Assembly (NCBI GenBank): GCA_011524425.1
Contig: WTKI01000259.1
Location: forward strand, 1-18,067
Length of the DNA stretch: 18,067 nt
Source of the DNA: Altererythrobacter sp.
GTDB taxonomy: Bacteria; Pseudomonadota; Alphaproteobacteria; Sphingomonadales; Sphingomonadaceae
Direction of reading: 5' to 3'
The position numbers and the translations under genes are program-made. Positions 3,088-15,402 of this stretch are shown here, piece by piece. How positions within the stretch are numbered: position 1 is the first letter of the stretch; the number at the start of each line of letters is the position of its first letter. The notes below the pieces were generated by a model. It was not told the DNA's origin, ran no database searches, and saw only the letters and a program-made list of their open reading frames with translations.

Positions 3088-4641
3088 TTACTTCTTCGCT
3101 GCCGGTTTCTTAGCGGCAGGTTTTTTAGCCGGAGCCTTTTTTGCAGCAGGTTTCTTAGCCGCAGGCTTCTTAGCCGGAGCCTTTTTTGCAGCAGGCTTGT
3201 CATCAGCTTTCTTAGCCGGCGCTTTCTTAGCGGCAGGCTTCTTGGCAGCTGCTTTCTTAGCCGGTGCCTTTTTCTTGGCAGGCGCTTTCTTGGCTTTAGC
3301 GACTTCAGCTTCTTCGTCCGCTTCGATCGCTGCTTCCAGCTCTTCTTGCGTTACTTCACGCTCTGTAACTTCAGCCTTGTCGAACAGGAAGTCGACCACC
3401 TTGTCTTCATAAAGCGGGGCGCGCAATTGCGCCGCTGCCATAGGCTCTTGCTGGACATATTGAATGAACCGCTCGCGATCCTCAGCGCGGTATTGTTGCG
3501 CCGCCTGCTGGATCAGCATGCTCATTTCTTGGCTAGTGACTTCTACACCATTGGCTTGGCCGATTTCTGACAATAGCAGGCCAAGACGCACACGGCGCTC
3601 GGCAATGTGGCGGTAATCGTCTTTTTCCGCTTCGATTTCTTTTTGCGCCGCTTCCGGATCTTCCTCGCGCGCGGCTTCTTGCTGCAGCTGAGCCCAGATT
3701 TGCTCAAATTCAGCGTCCACCATATTGCCCGGCACTTCGAAGTCGTGCCCTGCTGCAAGTGTATCAAGCAGCTGGCGCTTCATCTGCGTGCGGGTAAGAC
3801 CAGCTGTCTGCTGTTCCAATTGGCCTTTCAGGAGCTCTTTCAGCTTGTCCAAGCTGTCAAGGCCCAGCGATTTTGCAAAGTCTTCATCGACCTTGGTTTC
3901 AGTTTCGACTTTGACCTGTTTAACGGTGATCGCGAATTGCGCTTCTTTGCCTTTCAGGTCTTCAGCCTGATAATCTGCCGGGAATGTGACAGTGATGGTT
4001 TTCTCATCACCGGTCTTCACACCAACGAGTTGCTCTTCGAAGCCGGGAATGAACTGGCCTGAACCCAGAACCAGCGGCGCATCGTCTGCCTTGCCGCCTT
4101 CGAATTCCACGCCATCGACGCTGCCGACAAAATCAATGATCAGCTGATCACCGTCAGCCGCCTTCTTGGTTTTAGCAGCATCCTTGTAAGACTTGTTGTT
4201 GCCAGCAAGGTCCTTAAGCGCTTCGTCAACCTGCTTGTCAGCAACCGGAACAACCAGCTTTTCAAGCTTGATGCCATCGGTGGACGGCGCTTCTACAACC
4301 GGCAGGACTTCCAGCTCGACCGTCAGCTTGGCATCTTTGCCGTCTTCATAGCCTTCACCCAGCTCGATTTTCGGCTGCATTGCAGGACGGAGCTCTTTTT
4401 CCTTCATGAGCTCATCGACCGAATCGCGGATGGTATCGTTCACCACTTGGCCGTGAATCTGCTCGCCATGCATTTTCTTGACCAGATTCGCTGGCACTTT
4501 GCCCGGGCGGAAACCCGGCATGCGCACTTGCGGTGCAACTTTCTTGATCTCCGCATCGACCTTGTCTGCAATCTCTTTTGCAGTGATGGTCAGCTCATAT
4601 CCGCGCTTGAGACCTTCATTGGTCTTTTCTGTGATCTTCAT
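3088..4641 (-). CDS. tig: Trigger factor, ribosome-associated chaperone with a Lys/Ala/Pro-rich C-terminal tail
   Basis: Trigger factor binds at the ribosome exit tunnel, shields nascent chains and has peptidyl-prolyl isomerase activity. The ribosome-docking signature GFRPGKVP is at 43-50. An FKBP-type domain spans about 163-245 (GDQLIIDFVG, LGSGQFIPGFEEQL, VTFPADY), and the helical substrate-binding C domain runs to about 430. The protein is 517 residues, against roughly 430-450 usual. The excess is a tail from about 449 built of AKKAPAKK/AKKPAAKK units ending at the stop. The start at 4641 gives the typical N terminus MKITEKTNEG. No clear Shine-Dalgarno is visible (the bases before it are T/C-rich), but the open extension to 4728 enters the flank of a tRNA gene and cannot be coding. 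A tRNA-Leu gene lies just upstream on the same strand. Confidence 0.95.
   Translation of the reverse strand: MKITEKTNEGLKRGYELTITAKEIADKVDAEIKKVAPQVRMPGFRPGKVPANLVKKMHGEQIHGQVVNDTIRDSVDELMKEKELRPAMQPKIELGEGYEDGKDAKLTVELEVLPVVEAPSTDGIKLEKLVVPVADKQVDEALKDLAGNNKSYKDAAKTKKAADGDQLIIDFVGSVDGVEFEGGKADDAPLVLGSGQFIPGFEEQLVGVKTGDEKTITVTFPADYQAEDLKGKEAQFAITVKQVKVETETKVDEDFAKSLGLDSLDKLKELLKGQLEQQTAGLTRTQMKRQLLDTLAAGHDFEVPGNMVDAEFEQIWAQLQQEAAREEDPEAAQKEIEAEKDDYRHIAERRVRLGLLLSEIGQANGVEVTSQEMSMLIQQAAQQYRAEDRERFIQYVQQEPMAAAQLRAPLYEDKVVDFLFDKAEVTEREVTQEELEAAIEADEEAEVAKAKKAPAKKKAPAKKAAAKKPAAKKAPAKKADDKPAAKKAPAKKPAAKKPAAKKAPAKKPAAKKPAAKK
3091..3297 (-). repeat. Degenerate tandem repeat encoding the AKKAPAKK tail of trigger factor
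   Basis: The last 69 codons of tig are made of short, near-identical units. At the DNA level a 26-base stretch at 3125-3150 recurs exactly at 3170-3195, a 45-base (15-codon) period, and shorter copies fill the rest. Such a tract can expand or contract by replication slippage, so tail length may vary between strains. The encoded peptide is strongly basic, like the C termini of histone H1 and of bacterial H1-like proteins. Confidence 0.85.
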
Positions 4642-4698
4642 GGGAAAAAACTTAAGCCTTCTCAGTATTTTGCGAGTCCGAACATGGGCTAGCGGAGG

Positions 4699-4783
4699 TG
4701 GTGCGGGCGAAGGGACTCGAACCCCCACATCTTGCGATACTGGTACCTAAAACCAGCGCGTCTACCAATTCCGCCACGCCCGC
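4699..4783 (-). tRNA. tRNA-Leu, anticodon UAG
   Basis: On the minus strand the sequence folds into a full class II tRNA. The 7-bp acceptor stem is GCGGGCG with CGCCCGC, the D arm contains AATTGGTAGACGC, and the anticodon stem is CTGGT/ACCAG with loop TTTAGGT (anticodon TAG, reading CUN Leu codons). The variable arm has stem ATC-GCAA-GAT, and the T arm contains GGTTCGAGTCC. The discriminator is A, and CCA is encoded (4699-4701). It lies 57 bases before the tig start on the same strand. Confidence 0.97.
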
Positions 4784-8896: not shown

Positions 8897-10195
8897 CTAC
8901 TTTTTCAACGCAAACAGTTTGCCGTAGGTCAGACAACGCCAAAGCCATTCGAGCGGCCCATAGCGGAAATTATCTAGCCATGGCTTGGACCACAGCAGCA
9001 TGATCGCGCATGTCCCGATGACTATTCCATAAAGCTCCGGACGATTGAGTTTACCGTAAAGACCGAACCCCCAGCCGTGGAACAGGACGATCATCAGAAC
9101 CGATGTGCCGAGGTAGTTCGTGAATGCAGCTCTGCCAGCAGCTCTTATGCGCTCGCTAAGCCAGCCGGTGGCATATGGGGCATACAGCACCAGCACAGCT
9201 GCCAGCCCGATCACCATCACAAGACGGGGCAATACCGAGAAACCCACAAAGGCTGCTAGAGTGCCGTAATATGTAAAGCCGCTCGCCTGTATCCAGAGAC
9301 CGATCGCCAAATGGGCAAGCGCACCTGCGATCACACCGGTCCATCCCCAAAAGCGCATGCGCTGTGCGTCAAATTCGCCAGAGAACATACCCATCCGGTA
9401 AAGCGCCGCCCCCATCAGCATCAGTGGAAGCGTTTCCAGTCCGAACAGCATCAAATTGGCCAAAGGTTCTGTGAGATTGTTCTCGATCCGGTGCGCGACA
9501 AGCCCGGTAAATTCTCCAGCCGAGATTAGAGCGGTTTCCGCTTCGTCAGCCGCGAGCGCTGCAGTCTTTGGGGCGGCCAGACCAGCGCGCATCTCGCTAA
9601 AGTTATCGCCTTCGCCCAGCGGCGTATCCGCAACAAAAGGAAGAGGCGCCATCATAAGCGCGTAGAGAACGGCGCCCGCAATGTAGCTGAACAGCCCAAC
9701 CTTCCACTGCACCGAGACAGTCCAGCGCAATGCCAGCAAAACGACAAGCCCGATCACAGCGTAATAAAACAGGATATCGCCGCGCCAGATCACGAAGAAA
9801 TGGAACAATCCGAACAAGCCAAGCCAGAACAACCGCCTCGCCTGTAGCCACCGTGTCTCGCCCCGGGCCCAGCTGCGTTCCATAAACAGATAAAGACCTG
9901 CACCGAACAAAAGCGTGAACAGCCCGCGCATTTTGCCGTCGATCAACACAAATTGCGCGATCCACTGCCAGCCGCCCGGATCGCCATCGGGAACCAGAAA
10001 GCCGTCTGGATACATATAGGCGCTGAAAGGCTGCCCGAACGCGATGATATTGGCGGCGAGAATGCCCATGACCGCAAGGCCGCGTATAAAATCGAGCGAA
10101 CCGATCCGCTCTGACTTTGAGACAGGTGCCGCCTCGCCGGCGGCCAGAGCTGGCTCTGGAGCATCATTATCAAAGACTTCACTGGTATCTGGCAT
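8897..10195 (-). CDS. DUF418 domain inner-membrane protein (YeiB-like)
   Basis: This 432-residue polytopic membrane protein belongs to the DUF418/YeiB family, whose function is poorly defined. After a roughly 30-residue Ala/Pro/Glu-rich cytoplasmic start, the family's first helix is marked by RIGSLDFIRGLAVMGILAAN at 31-50. FTLLFGAGLYLF follows at 93-104, with more hydrophobic segments in between. The DUF418 domain itself occupies roughly the last 150 residues, including FTNYLGTSV and the C-terminal WLDNFRYGPLEWLWRCLTYG, a strong family signature. I chose the ATG at 10195 because GAGG stands 7 bases upstream; the open extension to 10216 is unnecessary. It is divergent from the ParA-type gene. 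On the minus strand it lies upstream of bfd, but the Fur-like boxes between them suggest a separate promoter. Confidence 0.9.
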   Translation of the reverse strand: MPDTSEVFDNDAPEPALAAGEAAPVSKSERIGSLDFIRGLAVMGILAANIIAFGQPFSAYMYPDGFLVPDGDPGGWQWIAQFVLIDGKMRGLFTLLFGAGLYLFMERSWARGETRWLQARRLFWLGLFGLFHFFVIWRGDILFYYAVIGLVVLLALRWTVSVQWKVGLFSYIAGAVLYALMMAPLPFVADTPLGEGDNFSEMRAGLAAPKTAALAADEAETALISAGEFTGLVAHRIENNLTEPLANLMLFGLETLPLMLMGAALYRMGMFSGEFDAQRMRFWGWTGVIAGALAHLAIGLWIQASGFTYYGTLAAFVGFSVLPRLVMVIGLAAVLVLYAPYATGWLSERIRAAGRAAFTNYLGTSVLMIVLFHGWGFGLYGKLNRPELYGIVIGTCAIMLLWSKPWLDNFRYGPLEWLWRCLTYGKLFALKK

Positions 10196-10322
10196 TGTCC
10201 ACCCTCGCCTGTGCAAGCGGCTTTATTGCGCAAAGAAAAGGCCACGTTAACCTAAAATTAGCGGTATCCTGCGATCCCAGTGCACGAACCCGCCAACCGG
10301 CGGAATTGTATAGGGCAATCCA

Positions 10323-10328
10323 GGGGGA
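10323..10328 (+). promoter_or_regulatory. Ribosome binding site fixing a TTG start for the ParA-type gene
   Basis: GGGGGA lies 8 bases before a TTG at 10337, whose product begins directly with the ATPase fold (MRVLALASQKGG). The upstream in-frame GTG at 10280 has no Shine-Dalgarno and adds 19 residues unlike ParA proteins. The TTG is therefore the more likely start. Confidence 0.65.
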
Positions 10329-10336
10329 CCCAACCG

Positions 10337-11053
10337 TTGCGTGTACTCGCTTTGGCATCGCAGAAAGGTGGCTCAGGCAAGACCACCCTCTCCGGACATC
10401 TTGCCGTCCAGGCTCAGCGCGCAGGTGCTGGCCCGGTCGTCCTGATCGACATCGACCCACAAGGCTCTCTCGCCGATTGGTGGAACGAGCGTGAAGCAGA
10501 ATATCCTGCATTCGCTCAGACAACCGTCGCGCGTTTGGCCAATGACTTGCAGGTTTTGCGCCAGCAAGGCTTCAAGCTGGCTGTGATCGACACGCCGCCT
10601 GCAATCACTATGGCGATCCAGTCAGTGATTTCAGTTGCGGAACTGATCGTTGTTCCCACACGCCCCAGCCCGCACGATTTGCGTGCAGTTGGTGCGACAG
10701 TTGACCTGTGCGAGCGTGCTGGCAAGCCGCTGGTGTTTGTCGTCAACGCAGCAACGCCTAAAGCAAAGATCACGTCTGAAGCTGCTGTTGCGCTTTCGCA
10801 GCACGGCACGGTTGCTCCGATCACTCTGCACCACCGCACAGACTTTGCAGCATCAATGATCGATGGCCGCACAGTGATGGAAGTGGATCCGGAAAGCCGC
10901 AGTGCCGCAGAAGTCACAGCGCTGTGGAAATACATTTACGACCGTCTGGAAAAGAACTTCCGCCGCACGGTCTTCGCAGCACCAAACTCGCAGTCTCAAC
11001 TGCCTGGTTCCAATCGCCCAGCAGGTGGCTTCGGTCGCCGCGTCGCTCAATAA
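10337..11053 (+). CDS. ParA/MinD-family ATPase without a neighbouring parB
   Basis: This 238-residue deviant-Walker ATPase is of the type that positions DNA or protein cargo using ATP-driven binding to nucleoid or membrane. The deviant Walker A motif KGGSGKTT is at 10-17, with signature Lys10 and Lys15. Walker A' is at 38-43 (DIDPQG, Asp40) and Walker B is VIDTPP (Asp85). The C-terminal 30 residues are Ser/Pro/Gly/Arg-rich and probably flexible. There is no N-terminal DNA-binding domain and no amphipathic C-terminal MinD helix. No parB or centromere repeat is visible. The next gene, 15 bases downstream, encodes a small likely ribbon-helix-helix protein, as in ParA/ParG-type pairs. It is divergent from the DUF418 gene. 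The cargo is unknown; the operon's SPOR lipoprotein hints at cell division or the envelope. Confidence 0.88.
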   Translation: MRVLALASQKGGSGKTTLSGHLAVQAQRAGAGPVVLIDIDPQGSLADWWNEREAEYPAFAQTTVARLANDLQVLRQQGFKLAVIDTPPAITMAIQSVISVAELIVVPTRPSPHDLRAVGATVDLCERAGKPLVFVVNAATPKAKITSEAAVALSQHGTVAPITLHHRTDFAASMIDGRTVMEVDPESRSAAEVTALWKYIYDRLEKNFRRTVFAAPNSQSQLPGSNRPAGGFGRRVAQ

Positions 11054-11068
11054 GAGAGGGACGCGACC

Positions 11069-11539
11069 ATGAACGAAGCCAGCTTCGCCTCTTTGAGCCC
11101 AACGCTGCTGGCCCGCAAAGGCGGCGCTAAGCCAGCTATGCGGCCGCAGCTTGCTCCGATCCCTGACAAGACGCCTAAGAATCTGGATGATCTGGGCTGG
11201 AATGACATGGGTGAAGATGCTGCATCTGCACCAGAAGCCGATGACAGCGCTGAAGTCGTACAACTCAAGCCTAACCCAGCGGCAGGCAAGGTTGCGATCA
11301 CGCAAGACAATTCACCTGGTCCAATCACTAAGCCTGTTCGCAAGCGCCAATCCGCGCTCAAGCAAGGCAAGCGCGCGGCATTTACTCTGCGTCTGGATCA
11401 GGAACGCCATCTCAAGCTGCGTCTTGCAGCGACCATGCAGGAAACCAGCGCGCAAGAGCTTGTAACCAAAGCTCTGGACGCTCTGCTGGCAGAGATGACG
11501 GAACTGGAAACTCTCGCCGCTCAGATGAAAAAAAACTGA
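11069..11539 (+). CDS. Small protein with a probable ribbon-helix-helix C terminus, likely ParA partner
   Basis: The product has 156 residues. The N-terminal 100 look disordered: a short basic/hydrophobic stretch (SPTLLARKGGAKPAMRPQ, 10-27), an acidic Ala-rich part (39-63), then a basic part (KPVRKRQSALKQGKR, 88-102). The C-terminal 100-144 reads as one strand (RAAFTLRLD), a helix (QERHLKLRLAATMQ), a turn, and a second helix (SAQELVTKALDALLAEM), which is the ribbon-helix-helix layout of DNA-binding dimers. A basic flexible N terminus on an RHH protein is what ParG- and Omega-type partners use to stimulate their ParA ATPase. GAGGGA lies 7 bases before the ATG. It sits 15 bases after the ParA-type gene and 40 before the lipoprotein gene. 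The DNA-binding role is inferred from shape, not homology. Confidence 0.75.
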   Translation: MNEASFASLSPTLLARKGGAKPAMRPQLAPIPDKTPKNLDDLGWNDMGEDAASAPEADDSAEVVQLKPNPAAGKVAITQDNSPGPITKPVRKRQSALKQGKRAAFTLRLDQERHLKLRLAATMQETSAQELVTKALDALLAEMTELETLAAQMKKN

Positions 11540-11579
11540 GCGCGAAATTCTCGCTGAAAGTGAAGGAAGGGGAAGATCA

Positions 11580-12917
11580 ATGACCCGCACCGCAAAAACT
11601 GCAAACATCATTGCTCCTAAAGTAGCATTGGCCGTTACAACTGCGCTCGCAAGCGTTGCGCTGGCTGGCTGCACTACTGGCGGCGACGCGCCGCGCGCAG
11701 ATAGCTCTTACAGCAAAGCGCAAAGCGCGCTGGCTAAAGGCGAAGCTGCAAAGGCTGTCACCCATGCAGAAGCTGCCGTTCAGGCAGAACCGCGCAATGC
11801 AAGCTATCGTGCGATGCTGGGCGCAGCCTATCTTGAAAGCGGTCGTTTCCAGTCTGCTGCCACAAGTTTTGGCGACGCGCTGGATCTGGGTGACACGGAC
11901 CCGCGCACTGTTCTGAGTTACGCACTGGCGCAAACGGCCATGGGCAATAACAAAGCTGCAGTTGTGGCTCTTCGTGAAAACGAGAACAACATTGACGGTG
12001 CAGATCTGGGTCTCGCTCTGGCACTTGCCGGCGATGCAGATCGCGGCGTTGAAGTCCTCGGCAATGCTCTGCGTGCCGGTCAGAATTCCGCCAAGCTGCG
12101 TCAGAACCTTGCTTATGCCTACGCGCTGCAAGGCAATTGGCGCGGTGCCCGCGTGATGGCTGCTGAAGATGTTCCCGCTGACCAGCTGGACGAACGTATC
12201 AGCCAGTGGGCGCGCATGGGCAAGCCGGAAGACTATCAGATGCGCGTTGCAACGCTGCTCAATGTCACTCCGACTTATGACGCTGGCCAGCCAACCTATC
12301 TCGCGCTTGGCAACCACCCTGCTCATGCCGAAATGGTTGCAGAAGCAGCGGCAGAGTTGCCGATGCAGGAAGCAGCTCCGGCAACATTTGCTGAAGCACA
12401 GCCGGCCGCTGTTGCAGCGCCTGCTGCTAAGCCAGCAGCGAAGCCAGCAACTCCGGCTCGTGTCGCTGCTGCTCCGGCAAAGATCCGCTATGTTTCCAAT
12501 CCGGTGATTCAGCAGATCAACACAGATTATGACGAGCGCCGCGCAAGCGCCAAGAAGCGTCCAAGCAACCGTTTGGCAGCGCGTTCTTCGCAGCGTCGTA
12601 TGGCGTCGACTGCCGACAAAGCGACAGATACACATCTGGTACAGCTGGGCAGCTTCTCTAGCCGCAAGAGCGCTGAGAACGCCTGGTCAATCTACCAGAA
12701 GCGCTATCCGAACCTTAAAGGTCACGACATGGTGATCACGCAGGCTAATGTCGCCGGGAAAACCTATTACCGTGTTGCAGCCGCAGGTTTCGGCAAGAAT
12801 GGCGCAGCCGCTATGTGCGGACAGGTTAAGGCATCCGGCCAAGGTTGTCTGGCCTATGCCGACAGCACCGGCCTTCCTGGGGCAACGGACAAGGTTATCC
12901 GCGTGGCTGCACGCTAA
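11580..12917 (+). CDS. TPR- and SPOR-domain outer-membrane lipoprotein
   Basis: This 445-residue envelope protein has a lipoprotein signal ending in the lipobox LAGC (acylated Cys31); Thr at +2 favours the outer membrane. Residues about 42-200 form TPR-like helical repeats (AEAAVQAEPRNASYRAMLGA, then YLESGRFQSAATSFGDAL). An Ala/Pro/Lys-rich linker (about 262-300) and a basic stretch (318-340) follow. A SPOR domain occupies about 350-427, starting THLVQLGSFSSRKSAENAW; SPOR domains bind denuded glycan strands at the division septum. Cys413 and Cys423 inside the SPOR domain could form a disulphide. The start is sound: AAGGGGAA lies 7 bases upstream of the ATG. It is the last gene of the ParA-type operon and is followed by a strong terminator. 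Tad-type TPR lipoproteins were considered, but no pilus genes are nearby. Confidence 0.9.
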   Translation: MTRTAKTANIIAPKVALAVTTALASVALAGCTTGGDAPRADSSYSKAQSALAKGEAAKAVTHAEAAVQAEPRNASYRAMLGAAYLESGRFQSAATSFGDALDLGDTDPRTVLSYALAQTAMGNNKAAVVALRENENNIDGADLGLALALAGDADRGVEVLGNALRAGQNSAKLRQNLAYAYALQGNWRGARVMAAEDVPADQLDERISQWARMGKPEDYQMRVATLLNVTPTYDAGQPTYLALGNHPAHAEMVAEAAAELPMQEAAPATFAEAQPAAVAAPAAKPAAKPATPARVAAAPAKIRYVSNPVIQQINTDYDERRASAKKRPSNRLAARSSQRRMASTADKATDTHLVQLGSFSSRKSAENAWSIYQKRYPNLKGHDMVITQANVAGKTYYRVAAAGFGKNGAAAMCGQVKASGQGCLAYADSTGLPGATDKVIRVAAR

Positions 12918-12945
12918 GTTCAAGCTTCAAAGAGCTTTCAGCGAG

Positions 12946-12987
12946 ACTGCCCCCGGCCCTACCAAGGGTGCGGGGGTAGTTTTTTTT
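12946..12987 (+). terminator. Strong rho-independent terminator of the ParA/RHH/SPOR operon
   Basis: ACTGCCCCCG pairs with CGGGGGTAGT (one G-U pair). After a small internal loop, CCCT pairs with AGGG around an ACCA loop. A run of eight T residues (12980-12987) follows directly. It lies 28 bases after the lipoprotein stop codon. Confidence 0.92.
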
Positions 12988-13150: not shown

Positions 13151-14380
13151 TCAACCAACCCCAACCCCGCCTTTGAACAGCGCGGTGACGCGGCCTTGGG
13201 TTGGCTGACCGTCAAACGGCGTATTGTCAGCCGTCGCTGCCATTTTGCGGCGATCCACCACCCACGGCTTTTCTGGATCAACCAGCGCGATATCCGCTTC
13301 AGAGCCTTCCGCCAGTGCGCCCGCTTCCAAGCCCAGCAGTTTCGCAGGATTGCCAGCGAGAAGCTCAAATGCGCGGCCCATCTCGATCACCTGGTCACGC
13401 ACCAGCGTTAGCGTCATCGCGAGCAGCGTTTCCGCGCCCGCCATGCCCGGCTCTGCATCGGCAAAGGGCAACCGCTTATCCTCTGGTCCGCGCGGATCAT
13501 GCCCGCTGGAAATCACATCGATTACGCCTTCACCCATCGCCGCGATCACCGCTTGCCGGTCGGACTCGCTTCGCAAGGGCGGGGAAAGCCGCATGAAAGT
13601 CGTGAATTCAGCCGTGGCAAGGTCTGACAGCATGAAATGCGCTGGCGTGACCCCTGCAGTAACATTGACGCCGCGCGCTTTGGCATCGCGCACAAGTCTG
13701 ATCGAGCCGGCGGTTGTCACTTGGCGGATGTGAAGCCGCGCGCCGCTCATTTCAGCAAGCGCAATATCGCGCGCTACAGCAAGAGCCTCCGCTTCAGCAG
13801 GCGCACTCGGCAGACCCAGCCGGGTTGCCATCTCACCTGCTGTTGCAACGGCCTCGCCAGTCAAACCGCCATCTTCGGCATGAGTGACAACGACAAGGTC
13901 GAGCATTGCCGCATATTGCATGATGCGCAGCATGACGCCGCTGTCCGCGACCCACCCGCGTCCTGTCGCAATGCCGCGCGCACCCGCCTCTTTCATCAGG
14001 CCGATTTCAGCCAGCTCGCTCCCCGCGAGCGTCTTTGTCGCGGCGGCCAAGGGATGCACCCACAAGTCAGGCTTGCCGCTCTTCGCAATGTAATTGACCC
14101 GGCTCGGCAGATCGAGCGGCGGAGACTGATCAGGCATCAACGCTGCGCGCGTAATGCCGCCAAAGTGAAACGCCGGTTTGTCCACCGCAAACACGCCCAG
14201 ATCGACCAGTCCCGGCGCGATCAGCTGCCCTTTTGCATCCAGCGTTGTGTCTCCTGACTGTGCGGAAACATCGCCGACTGCATCGATCAGGCCATTGGCG
14301 AGCCGCACACCGCCCGCTCTTACGCCCTGCGGCGTTACGACAAGCCCGTTTGTTATGGTGAGAGGCTGTTGCTGCTTCAT
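13151..14380 (-). CDS. pyrC': Catalytically inactive dihydroorotase-like protein (PyrC'/PyrX type)
   Basis: This 409-residue amidohydrolase-fold protein is related to dihydroorotase (pyrimidine synthesis step 3) but lacks its metal site. Where active enzymes have PGLID-x-HVH, this one reads PGLVDLGVF at 57-65, so both His are lost (Gly62, Phe64). The second metal-binding His of the LHI-x-H motif is Gln220, and the Asp of the usual DHAPH is Gly293 (SSGHDPRG). Only His167 of the usual set is clearly kept. In Pseudomonas a dead PyrC' encoded next to pyrB is a structural subunit of aspartate transcarbamoylase, and the same is likely here. Its ATG overlaps the pyrB stop by 4 bases (ATGA), implying coupled 1:1 translation. 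An active dihydroorotase must then be encoded elsewhere. Confidence 0.88.
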
Positions 14381-15402
14381 GACCAGCCCTCCACACCGCG
14401 CGCATTGCGGGTCAGGATATCCAGACACGCCATGCGGATTGCGACGCCCATTTCCACCTGCCGCGTTATGATCGAGCGATCGAGCAGATCGGCCACATCG
14501 CTGTCGATCTCTACTCCGCGGTTCATCGGGCCCGGGTGCATAACCAAGGCCTCTGGCGCTGCGCGCTCCAAGCGGTCCTTGGTAAGTCCATAAAGGTGAT
14601 GATATTCGCGCGGGGACGGAATGAACTGGCCTTCCATCCGCTCTGTCTGAAGCCGCAGCATCATGACGACGTCTGCACCCTTCAAAGCTGCATCGAAATT
14701 GTAAAACGGTTCAGCGCCAATTGCCTCTACATCGGCAGGCATTAGAGCAGGCGGTGCGCACAGCCGCACACTGGCGCCAAGCGCTTGCAAGCAAAGCAGA
14801 GTGCTGCGCGCGACCCGGCTGTGCAGAATGTCGCCGCAGATCGTAACTGTAAGGCCGGTAAAGTCGTCGGCCGCCTCCCCACGCTGGCGCAACGCATGGC
14901 GCAAAGCGAGCGAATCCAGCAGTCCTTGCGTGGGGTGTTCGTGGCTTCCGTCCCCTGCATTAAGGACAGGACAATCGACTTTCTCTGCGATCAGTTTTGT
15001 CGCTCCGCTAGAGCCATGCCGGATCACGATTGCATCTGGGCGCATCGCGTTCAACGTGATCGCCGTATCAATCAGCGTTTCGCCTTTTTTCACGCTGGAT
15101 TGCGCCGCGTGCATATTGACGACATCCGCTCCCAGGCGCTTGCCTGCAATCTCGAAGCTCAGCAGCGTTCGGGTGGAATTTTCAAAGAAGGCGTTGATGA
15201 TGGTGAGGCCTGACAACAGGTCAACGTGCTTTGACGATTGCCGGTTCAATTCGATCCAGGGCTCTGCCTGATCAAGCAGGTACAGGATTTCATGCCGTTC
15301 AAGCTGCGAAATGCCAAGCAAGTCGCGATGCGGGAAGGCCAAGCTGCCCGCTGGATAGCGGCCGCTGGTCGATGCTGGGTCCGTCGATGTCATTAAAGCC
15401 AT
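14377..15402 (-). CDS. pyrB: Aspartate carbamoyltransferase catalytic subunit
   Basis: PyrB condenses carbamoyl phosphate with aspartate, the committed step of pyrimidine synthesis in the cytoplasm. The carbamoyl-phosphate loop STRT is at 76-79 within [20 protein letters not shown], the partner loop SSVKKGE is at 102-108, and HPTQ is at 156-159. The C-terminal part has MLRLQTERM and [11 protein letters not shown], both family signatures. The length is 341 residues from the ATG at 15402. An ATG at 15393 is equally possible, and neither has a clear Shine-Dalgarno. A 14-codon reading frame ends 4 bases before 15402, so initiation may be coupled to it. The frame also stays open to a TTG at 15441. 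Downstream lies the overlapping dead dihydroorotase gene, as in Pseudomonas-type holoenzymes. It is divergent from sppA. Confidence 0.95.

Follow-up and report, generated by a model that had tools for sequence, protein, structure and literature searches.

The closest described relative of the locus studied here is the ParF/ParG pair of TP228, in which the gene of the ATPase and that of its small partner, which ends in a ribbon-helix-helix (RHH) domain, follow each other in the same order. We analyzed a contig of Altererythrobacter sp. (assembly GCA_011524425.1, contig WTKI01000259.1), whose 18,067 nucleotides are hereafter called the window. Here, such a pair, a ParA ATPase and an RHH protein that we call the adaptor, is followed by the gene of a lipoprotein with tetratricopeptide repeats (TPR) and a SPOR domain. 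The three genes form a compact operon with a common terminator, kept in order in the nearest relatives and preceded by a box resembling the binding site of CtrA. We propose, with a probability of roughly 0.4, that a domesticated plasmid partition pair was recruited into a CtrA-controlled envelope module of the septum or new pole. No paper describing this gene set was found in the open-licence literature of PMC, a scope that excludes most subscription papers. The features of the locus are the following:

10247..10261, forward strand: CtrA-like box TTAACCTAAAATTAG (TTAA-N7-TTAG), followed by the conserved GGTATCCTGCGAT, 75 bases 5' of the ParA start
10322..10329, forward strand: probable ribosome-binding site AGGGGGAC before the TTG start at 10337
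10337..11053, forward strand: ParA ATPase, ParF-like, 238 residues, TTG start, deviant Walker A motif KGGSGKTT
Codons 11030-11041, forward strand: C-terminal FGRR tail of ParA
11069..11539, forward strand: RHH adaptor, 156 residues
11084..11149, forward strand: conserved N-terminal motif FASLSPTLLARKGGAKPAMRPQ of the adaptor (strict regular expression), putative ParA-docking peptide
11195..11212, forward strand: GWNDMG motif of the adaptor
11369..11503, forward strand: RHH domain
11580..12917, forward strand: TPR/SPOR outer-membrane lipoprotein, 445 residues, lipobox LAGC (Cys31)
12627..12851, forward strand: SPOR domain (Pfam SPOR), residues 350-424, with Cys413 and Cys423
12943..12983, forward strand: intrinsic terminator hairpin, then a T run (-30.5 kcal/mol, z -5.5)

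To survey the trio, the middle protein was searched against genome contigs, and the best 80 of 253 relatives are referred to as close loci. The first-pass annotation of the window, made from the letters alone, had described the three genes as a set, and their order is indeed kept: in all 80 close loci a ParA match lies 5' and a lipoprotein match 3' of the RHH gene. Some of these matches are partial, namely ParA in L028, L064, L070 and L077 (the last over just 26 residues) and several lipoproteins. ParA has a SPOR gene no more than 2.5 kb away in 78/78 close loci, in 28/29 loci from elsewhere in the order Sphingomonadales (genomes being assigned to orders by the label used in the genome collection) and in 17/20 further order loci. 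The misses are L169, where the lipoprotein matches at a weaker E, L268 (stretch end, present in L298), L281 and L283 (contig end). In other orders, none of 19 loci has a SPOR gene near ParA; the single case returned by the script was a TPR glycosyltransferase of L189 and was removed. In family f5 (L297, L299) the order is ParA, RHH, a gene for a Sel1-repeat/SPOR protein on the opposite strand, and the lipoprotein gene, such that the pair is beside SPOR genes yet outside their operon. The conserved order in the 80 close loci and the SPOR gene next to ParA even under the f5 layout led us to reject the idea that the trio are chance neighbours.

The ATPase is small, begins at the Walker motif and lacks an N-terminal DNA-binding domain. 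Its nearest solved relative is TP228 ParF, both by sequence and by fold. The model NF041546 (ParA family partition ATPase) gives 165.6 bits, under the NCBI cut-off of 180. The Pfam MipZ model passes its cut-off of 20.7 with 33.3 bits and is outscored by AAA_31 and CbiA; we rejected MipZ as the identity of this protein because the match covers residues 3-54 only and the true MipZ is far off on the tree. The best PDB sequence match of the adaptor is ParG, a weak one (E 0.1), and the adaptor shares its RHH fold with MatP and CdbA. Among 3484 plasmid records matching ParA, the best is 66.5% identical. In each of the six that we compared, out of 40 listed (ParA identity 53.6-66.5%), a small protein lies directly behind ParA; those of Lichenicola and Acidiphilium are outside the gene tables of the records and were taken from open frames. 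As a group, these partners align with the adaptor at 98.9-99.0% profile probability, from the N-terminal motif through the RHH domain. The motif is shared by five of the six, the version of Roseomonas being degenerate and the most divergent. Since the plasmid partners are profile-homologous to the adaptor, the chromosomal pair and the plasmid partition pairs are homologous; on these sequence grounds, we class the former as a ParF/ParG-like (type Ib) pair akin to those of small plasmids. The RHH fold suggested earlier for the middle protein is thus upheld by the domain at 11369..11503 and by this homology, and the ParA is not the orphan it had been taken for, because its partner is the middle gene.

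We built a ParA tree of 57 rows, of which 49 are chromosomal and six are plasmid sequences. The chromosomal rows cluster apart from the plasmid ones with moderate support (87/88), and families f1, f4, f5, f6 and f8 each form a single group, as expected of vertical inheritance. The first-pass annotation had named clustering with plasmid partition proteins that have their own parB/parS as a result that would speak against its proposal. This was found in part: the six plasmid ParAs do have homologous partners of their own, yet the chromosomal sequences stand apart.

The conservation of ParA is extreme. In the loci covered to 60% or more, its median identity is 94.7% (78 loci), compared with 50.6% for both the adaptor (80) and the lipoprotein (71). 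Medians for genes around the trio are 75.4% for pyrC (71), 82.3% for pyrB (66) and 56.4% for DUF418 (68), and ParA exceeds pyrC in 70/70 shared loci and pyrB in 65/65. A C-terminal tail FG[RKN][RKQ] ends 77/78 close, 28/30 order and 9/19 class ParAs (class loci being those of other alphaproteobacterial orders) and none of the six plasmid ParAs.

In the adaptor, the N-terminal motif is found in 78/80 close loci, 6/6 other members of the family Sphingomonadaceae, 23/23 members of other order families and 12/20 class members. GWNDMG is restricted to Sphingomonadaceae, with 77/80 close loci and 5/6 other family members, and none of the 23 in other families or of the 20 in the class. Two class loci carry a swapped partner: in L193 (90-638) and L222 (857-1378), beside the same kind of ParA, the protein combines a LARKGxAxPAM motif with a helix-turn-helix match (weak, under cut-off) in place of the RHH domain. 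Because of these two proteins, the motif seems tied to this ParA, whereas the part that binds DNA can apparently be exchanged, and we infer that the motif may be the part recognised by ParA. As further observations on the adaptor, a CxC tail (e.g. NCPCL, TCICG) follows the RHH domain in 15/23 members of other order families and 9/20 of the class (L154-L176, L177-L194), and in 0/80 close loci; it is possibly a metal or redox site. In L153 (253-1770, genome G085) the RHH protein reaches 505 residues through a long acidic insert that separates the conserved blocks.

The box in front of the operon is conserved as well. TTAA-N7-TTAG precedes ParA in 72/76 close upstream regions (background 1.4e-6 per base), and other half-site spacings from 3 to 13 occur in 0 to 2 regions each. 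For the probable ribosome-binding site, the 8-mer CAGGGGGA is present in 60/77 upstream regions, counted irrespective of position. The relaxed pattern TTWA-N7-TTAR has the box as its sole match on both strands of the window, and the extended pattern is unique in the genome at 3 mismatches; the source assembly is 77% complete, which also limits any claim of absence for a chromosomal ParA or a Sel1-SPOR gene elsewhere in it. Other Sphingomonadaceae keep the box and other families mostly have TTTAC-N6-TTAA. TTWA-N7-TTAR occurs in 25/29 order loci having upstream sequence (0.05 expected per region) and in 1/19 loci of other orders. The full site of CtrA is TTAA-N7-TTAA (PMC8921679); compared with it, the spacing and the first half are exact and the last base is G in Sphingomonadaceae. 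We also searched six genomes for TTAAC-N6-TTAR and obtained 32 strand matches. In five of these genomes the trio is among the targets. Three genomes have a match upstream of a Tad-domain gene (L234, L254, L262), and three upstream of c-di-GMP genes encoding GGDEF proteins (L236, L242, L252), which are 34-36% alike and not clearly one gene. A reversed control pattern has more matches than the box in all six genomes; hence, the motif is avoided elsewhere. These results suggest that the box is CtrA-like, giving new support to a cell-cycle link in which CtrA would bind in front of the operon. The growth of Sphingomonas melonis does not need CtrA (PMC8116508).

The third gene encodes a SPOR lipoprotein, as the first reading had it: Pfam SPOR scores 35.2 bits for a cut-off of 21, and the lipobox LAGC, read from the sequence, has a Thr after its cysteine. 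Cys413 and Cys423 of the SPOR domain are invariant in 14 aligned relatives. The protein was also considered as FtsN and rejected, with 16.4 bits for TIGR02223 (cut-off 107.65). It is often accompanied by a second SPOR protein, first spotted in the loci of ParA-negative genomes, whose gene is divergent. Among eight examples scanned, Sel1 matches all eight (six over cut-off) and SPOR is over cut-off in seven. With a Sel1-SPOR profile made from these eight, we found the gene of this exported protein directly upstream of ParA in 60/80 close loci, with 14 lacking it and 6 too short. An adjacent Sel1-SPOR gene is lacking in the window, as it is in several of the closest relatives. The neighbours of the trio in the window are these:

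8897..10216, reverse strand: DUF418 membrane protein, in the slot that the divergent Sel1-SPOR gene occupies in 60/74 close loci
13151..14428, reverse strand: dihydroorotase-like PyrC, downstream neighbour

Further off in the window, the trigger factor (3088-4728, reverse strand, TIGR00115 427.5 bits) ends in a long tail rich in Ala, Lys and Pro, which histone H1-like proteins match weakly, below cut-off.

The trio is widespread in the order. A profile of the close-family RHH protein matches 240/297 genomes; of the 57 negative ones, 20 have ParA (E 1e-60 or better), most with a divergent RHH partner. The RHH protein or, failing that, ParA is thus found in 260/297 genomes, a count that does not rest on a ParA check in every one of the 240. 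Outside the order, ParA is found in 50/381 sampled class genomes (E 1e-69 or better). Among 22 RHH matches there, 21 have ParA next door, the exception (L145) resembling an unrelated HicB-type protein, and the pair stands on chromosomes of several alphaproteobacterial orders. We scanned 20 neighbouring proteins from 14 of the 20 class loci and found no common theme: two are Rce1-like, two TPR/GT41 glycosyltransferases, others PAS, ROS/MucR, Mrp antiporter, AMP-binding and enoyl-CoA hydratase proteins, and the rest without family. The Rce1-like CAAX protease genes are downstream of the pair (L179 6313-7326, L184 3783-4757), and the glycosyltransferase genes converge on it (L188 708-3548, L189 2283-5225).

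The Altererythrobacter genome itself encodes a full-length MipZ (L084, Pfam 384 bits), far from the ParA on the tree. The trio had been suggested to be a Sphingomonadales-specific alternative or addition to MipZ; because the genome has MipZ, the trio is an addition and not an alternative, and the ParA in other orders speaks against specificity. The genome also encodes CpaB and a MinD-like, TadZ-like protein adjoining a TadA-family ATPase. A further ParA/BcsQ-like ATPase of 244 residues (L081 1285-2019, contig C54) reaches the cut-off of none of the named NCBIfam models listed.

How might these parts work together? In the scenario of a recruited plasmid pair, a ParF/ParG-like pair would have become chromosomal before the Sphingomonadales diversified and would now be part of a CtrA-controlled envelope locus, with the TPR/SPOR lipoprotein and, in most close relatives, the divergent Sel1/SPOR exported protein. 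CtrA would switch the operon on at its cell-cycle stage, and, through their SPOR domains, both solenoid proteins would be kept on denuded septal peptidoglycan and, as a result, at the new pole. The RHH dimer would sit on DNA, where its basic N-terminal peptide may trigger ATP hydrolysis by nucleoid-bound ParA and so give a signal of nucleoid position. This signal could time or place new-pole envelope assembly, and possibly that of polar machinery, the Tad pilus for example. SPOR domains bind wall that amidases have processed. A role at the new pole is made plausible by two precedents: in Sinorhizobium, a SPOR protein reads the amidase-processed wall as a new-pole landmark and affects chromosome segregation (PMC7822825), and motifs that bind the septal wall bring the type IVa pilus machine to sites of division (PMC5285504). 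We hypothesize a joint chromosome-to-septum role. Its fullest version, where a CtrA-timed pair from plasmids and two septal peptidoglycan-binding solenoid proteins couple chromosome position to new-pole maturation across Sphingomonadales, adding to ParABS, MipZ and TadZ another kind of control by the ParA family, is tentative and, taken as a whole, rather doubtful.

Several results weigh against this scenario. The split between chromosomal and plasmid ParAs has moderate support only. In an AlphaFold2 read-through fusion, the N-terminal motif was left undocked on ParA (motif pLDDT ~40). No convincing repeated DNA site was found for the RHH protein: four upstream regions gave just short repeats, each in two copies, and degenerate sites could escape such a search. 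The box is missing before ParA in 16/16 f5 loci (L266-L281) and between the SPOR genes in L297, L298, L299 and L334, and 21 of the 32 box matches in the six genomes are by other genes or none. In G103 (L282 / L296), ParA is followed directly by the TPR-SPOR gene and the RHH gene is missing. The distance of the locus to rsmG, a proxy of the origin, is 0.12-0.47 of the genome with a median of 0.26 (24 of 30 genomes searched, six multi-contig ones being left out and several genome lengths rounded), which led us to reject an origin-proximal par locus. Finally, the lipoprotein gene is kept without ParA-RHH in 18/37 ParA-negative genomes (E 1e-40 or better; 9/9 in ParA-positive controls). The lipoprotein outlasts the pair in these genomes and is therefore not dependent on it. 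The surroundings are retained too: of 18 loci taken from ParA-negative genomes, 7 still have a pyrC homologue next to the lipoprotein gene and 15 have the Sel1-SPOR gene there (seven of these loci being sources of the profile). Where both SPOR genes could be placed, the box points at the lipoprotein gene in 7/13 ParA-negative loci (0.32 expected), and we consequently disfavour the box as an operator of the RHH protein. The SPOR genes and the box look like the sturdier core of the locus and ParA-RHH like its losable part.

Two other explanations have to be considered, both unlikely in our view. In the first, the lipoprotein serves the Tad pilus as a TadD/pilotin-like TPR partner in the outer membrane, its SPOR domain pre-installs the pilus at the septum, and ParA-RHH helps to place it. 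The box upstream of a Tad-domain gene in 3/6 genomes fits this explanation, as does the precedent of the type IVa pilus machine at septa (PMC5285504). Nine Tad loci gave no TPR-SPOR homologue in their filtered frames, and the unfiltered ones give a SPOR match of 249 residues at the far end of L288. Loss of ParA is also commoner in genomes without CpaB (E 0.001), with 6/9 against 31/288 (Fisher p 1.6e-4, uncorrected for kinship). However, CpaB is nearly universal in the order (288/297 genomes), so its co-occurrence says little. We rejected a strict co-occurrence of Tad and trio, as it is not clean and has exceptions both ways: TPR-SPOR is retained in at least four CpaB-negative genomes (G037, G043, G070, G081) and lacking or weak in CpaB-positive ones (G099, G111, G133, G216, G089 and G217, among others). 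No TadD signature was found in the lipoprotein, its PDB matches being generic or designed TPRs and MamA only.

In the second explanation, hardly expected to hold any better, ParA-RHH is a retained DNA partition system of the chromosome, e.g. of the terminus or mid-arm, which shares an operon with the lipoprotein for timing only. It is favoured by the homology to plasmid partition pairs, by the extreme conservation of ParA and by the RHH fold common to MatP and CdbA, but the locus is not origin-proximal, the upstream regions have no repeated site, and the SPOR neighbour is left unexplained where the operon is split (f5). That the pair is a transcription regulator, with RHH repressing the operon, ParA modulating and the dose of the SPOR proteins as sole output, fits the compact operon and the capacity of ParG-like proteins to act as auto-repressors, but is the least probable, since a box that stays in ParA-negative loci is unlikely to be the RHH operator and auto-repression would hardly seem to call for a motor ATPase kept at 95% identity.

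If the recruited pair does couple chromosome and envelope, a plasmid segregation motor has turned into a controller of the cell pole or of division, and in an order of common environmental bacteria the position of the chromosome may be tied to the building of the new pole in a way not studied so far. Should ParA-RHH only segregate DNA, specific targets would still be provided by the box, the Sel1-SPOR gene and the motif proposed for docking.

Compared with TP228 ParF/ParG, the trio is chromosomal and vertically inherited, its ParA has the FGRR tail, SPOR genes are attached, and the adaptor is longer, with extra motifs; no centromere repeats were found in the upstream regions examined. The small-plasmid pairs (Comamonas pZM22-2, Deefgea, Lichenicola, Acidiphilium, Xanthomonas pAG1 and Roseomonas) are homologous in both proteins and differ in being plasmid-borne, several of them beside replication genes, without the lipoprotein and without the ParA tail. 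MipZ shares the deviant Walker ATPase family and is a separate full-length gene of the same genome, distant on the tree. In Sinorhizobium RgsS/AmiC, SPOR likewise ties an amidase-made landmark of the new pole to segregation; RgsS differs in being an FtsN-like transmembrane protein, and a ParA/RHH pair is not mentioned in the abstract of PMC7822825. The type IVa pilus machine, which uses AMIN and LysM domains and is of another pilus class, is alike in that domains binding the septal wall pre-install a polar machine (PMC5285504).

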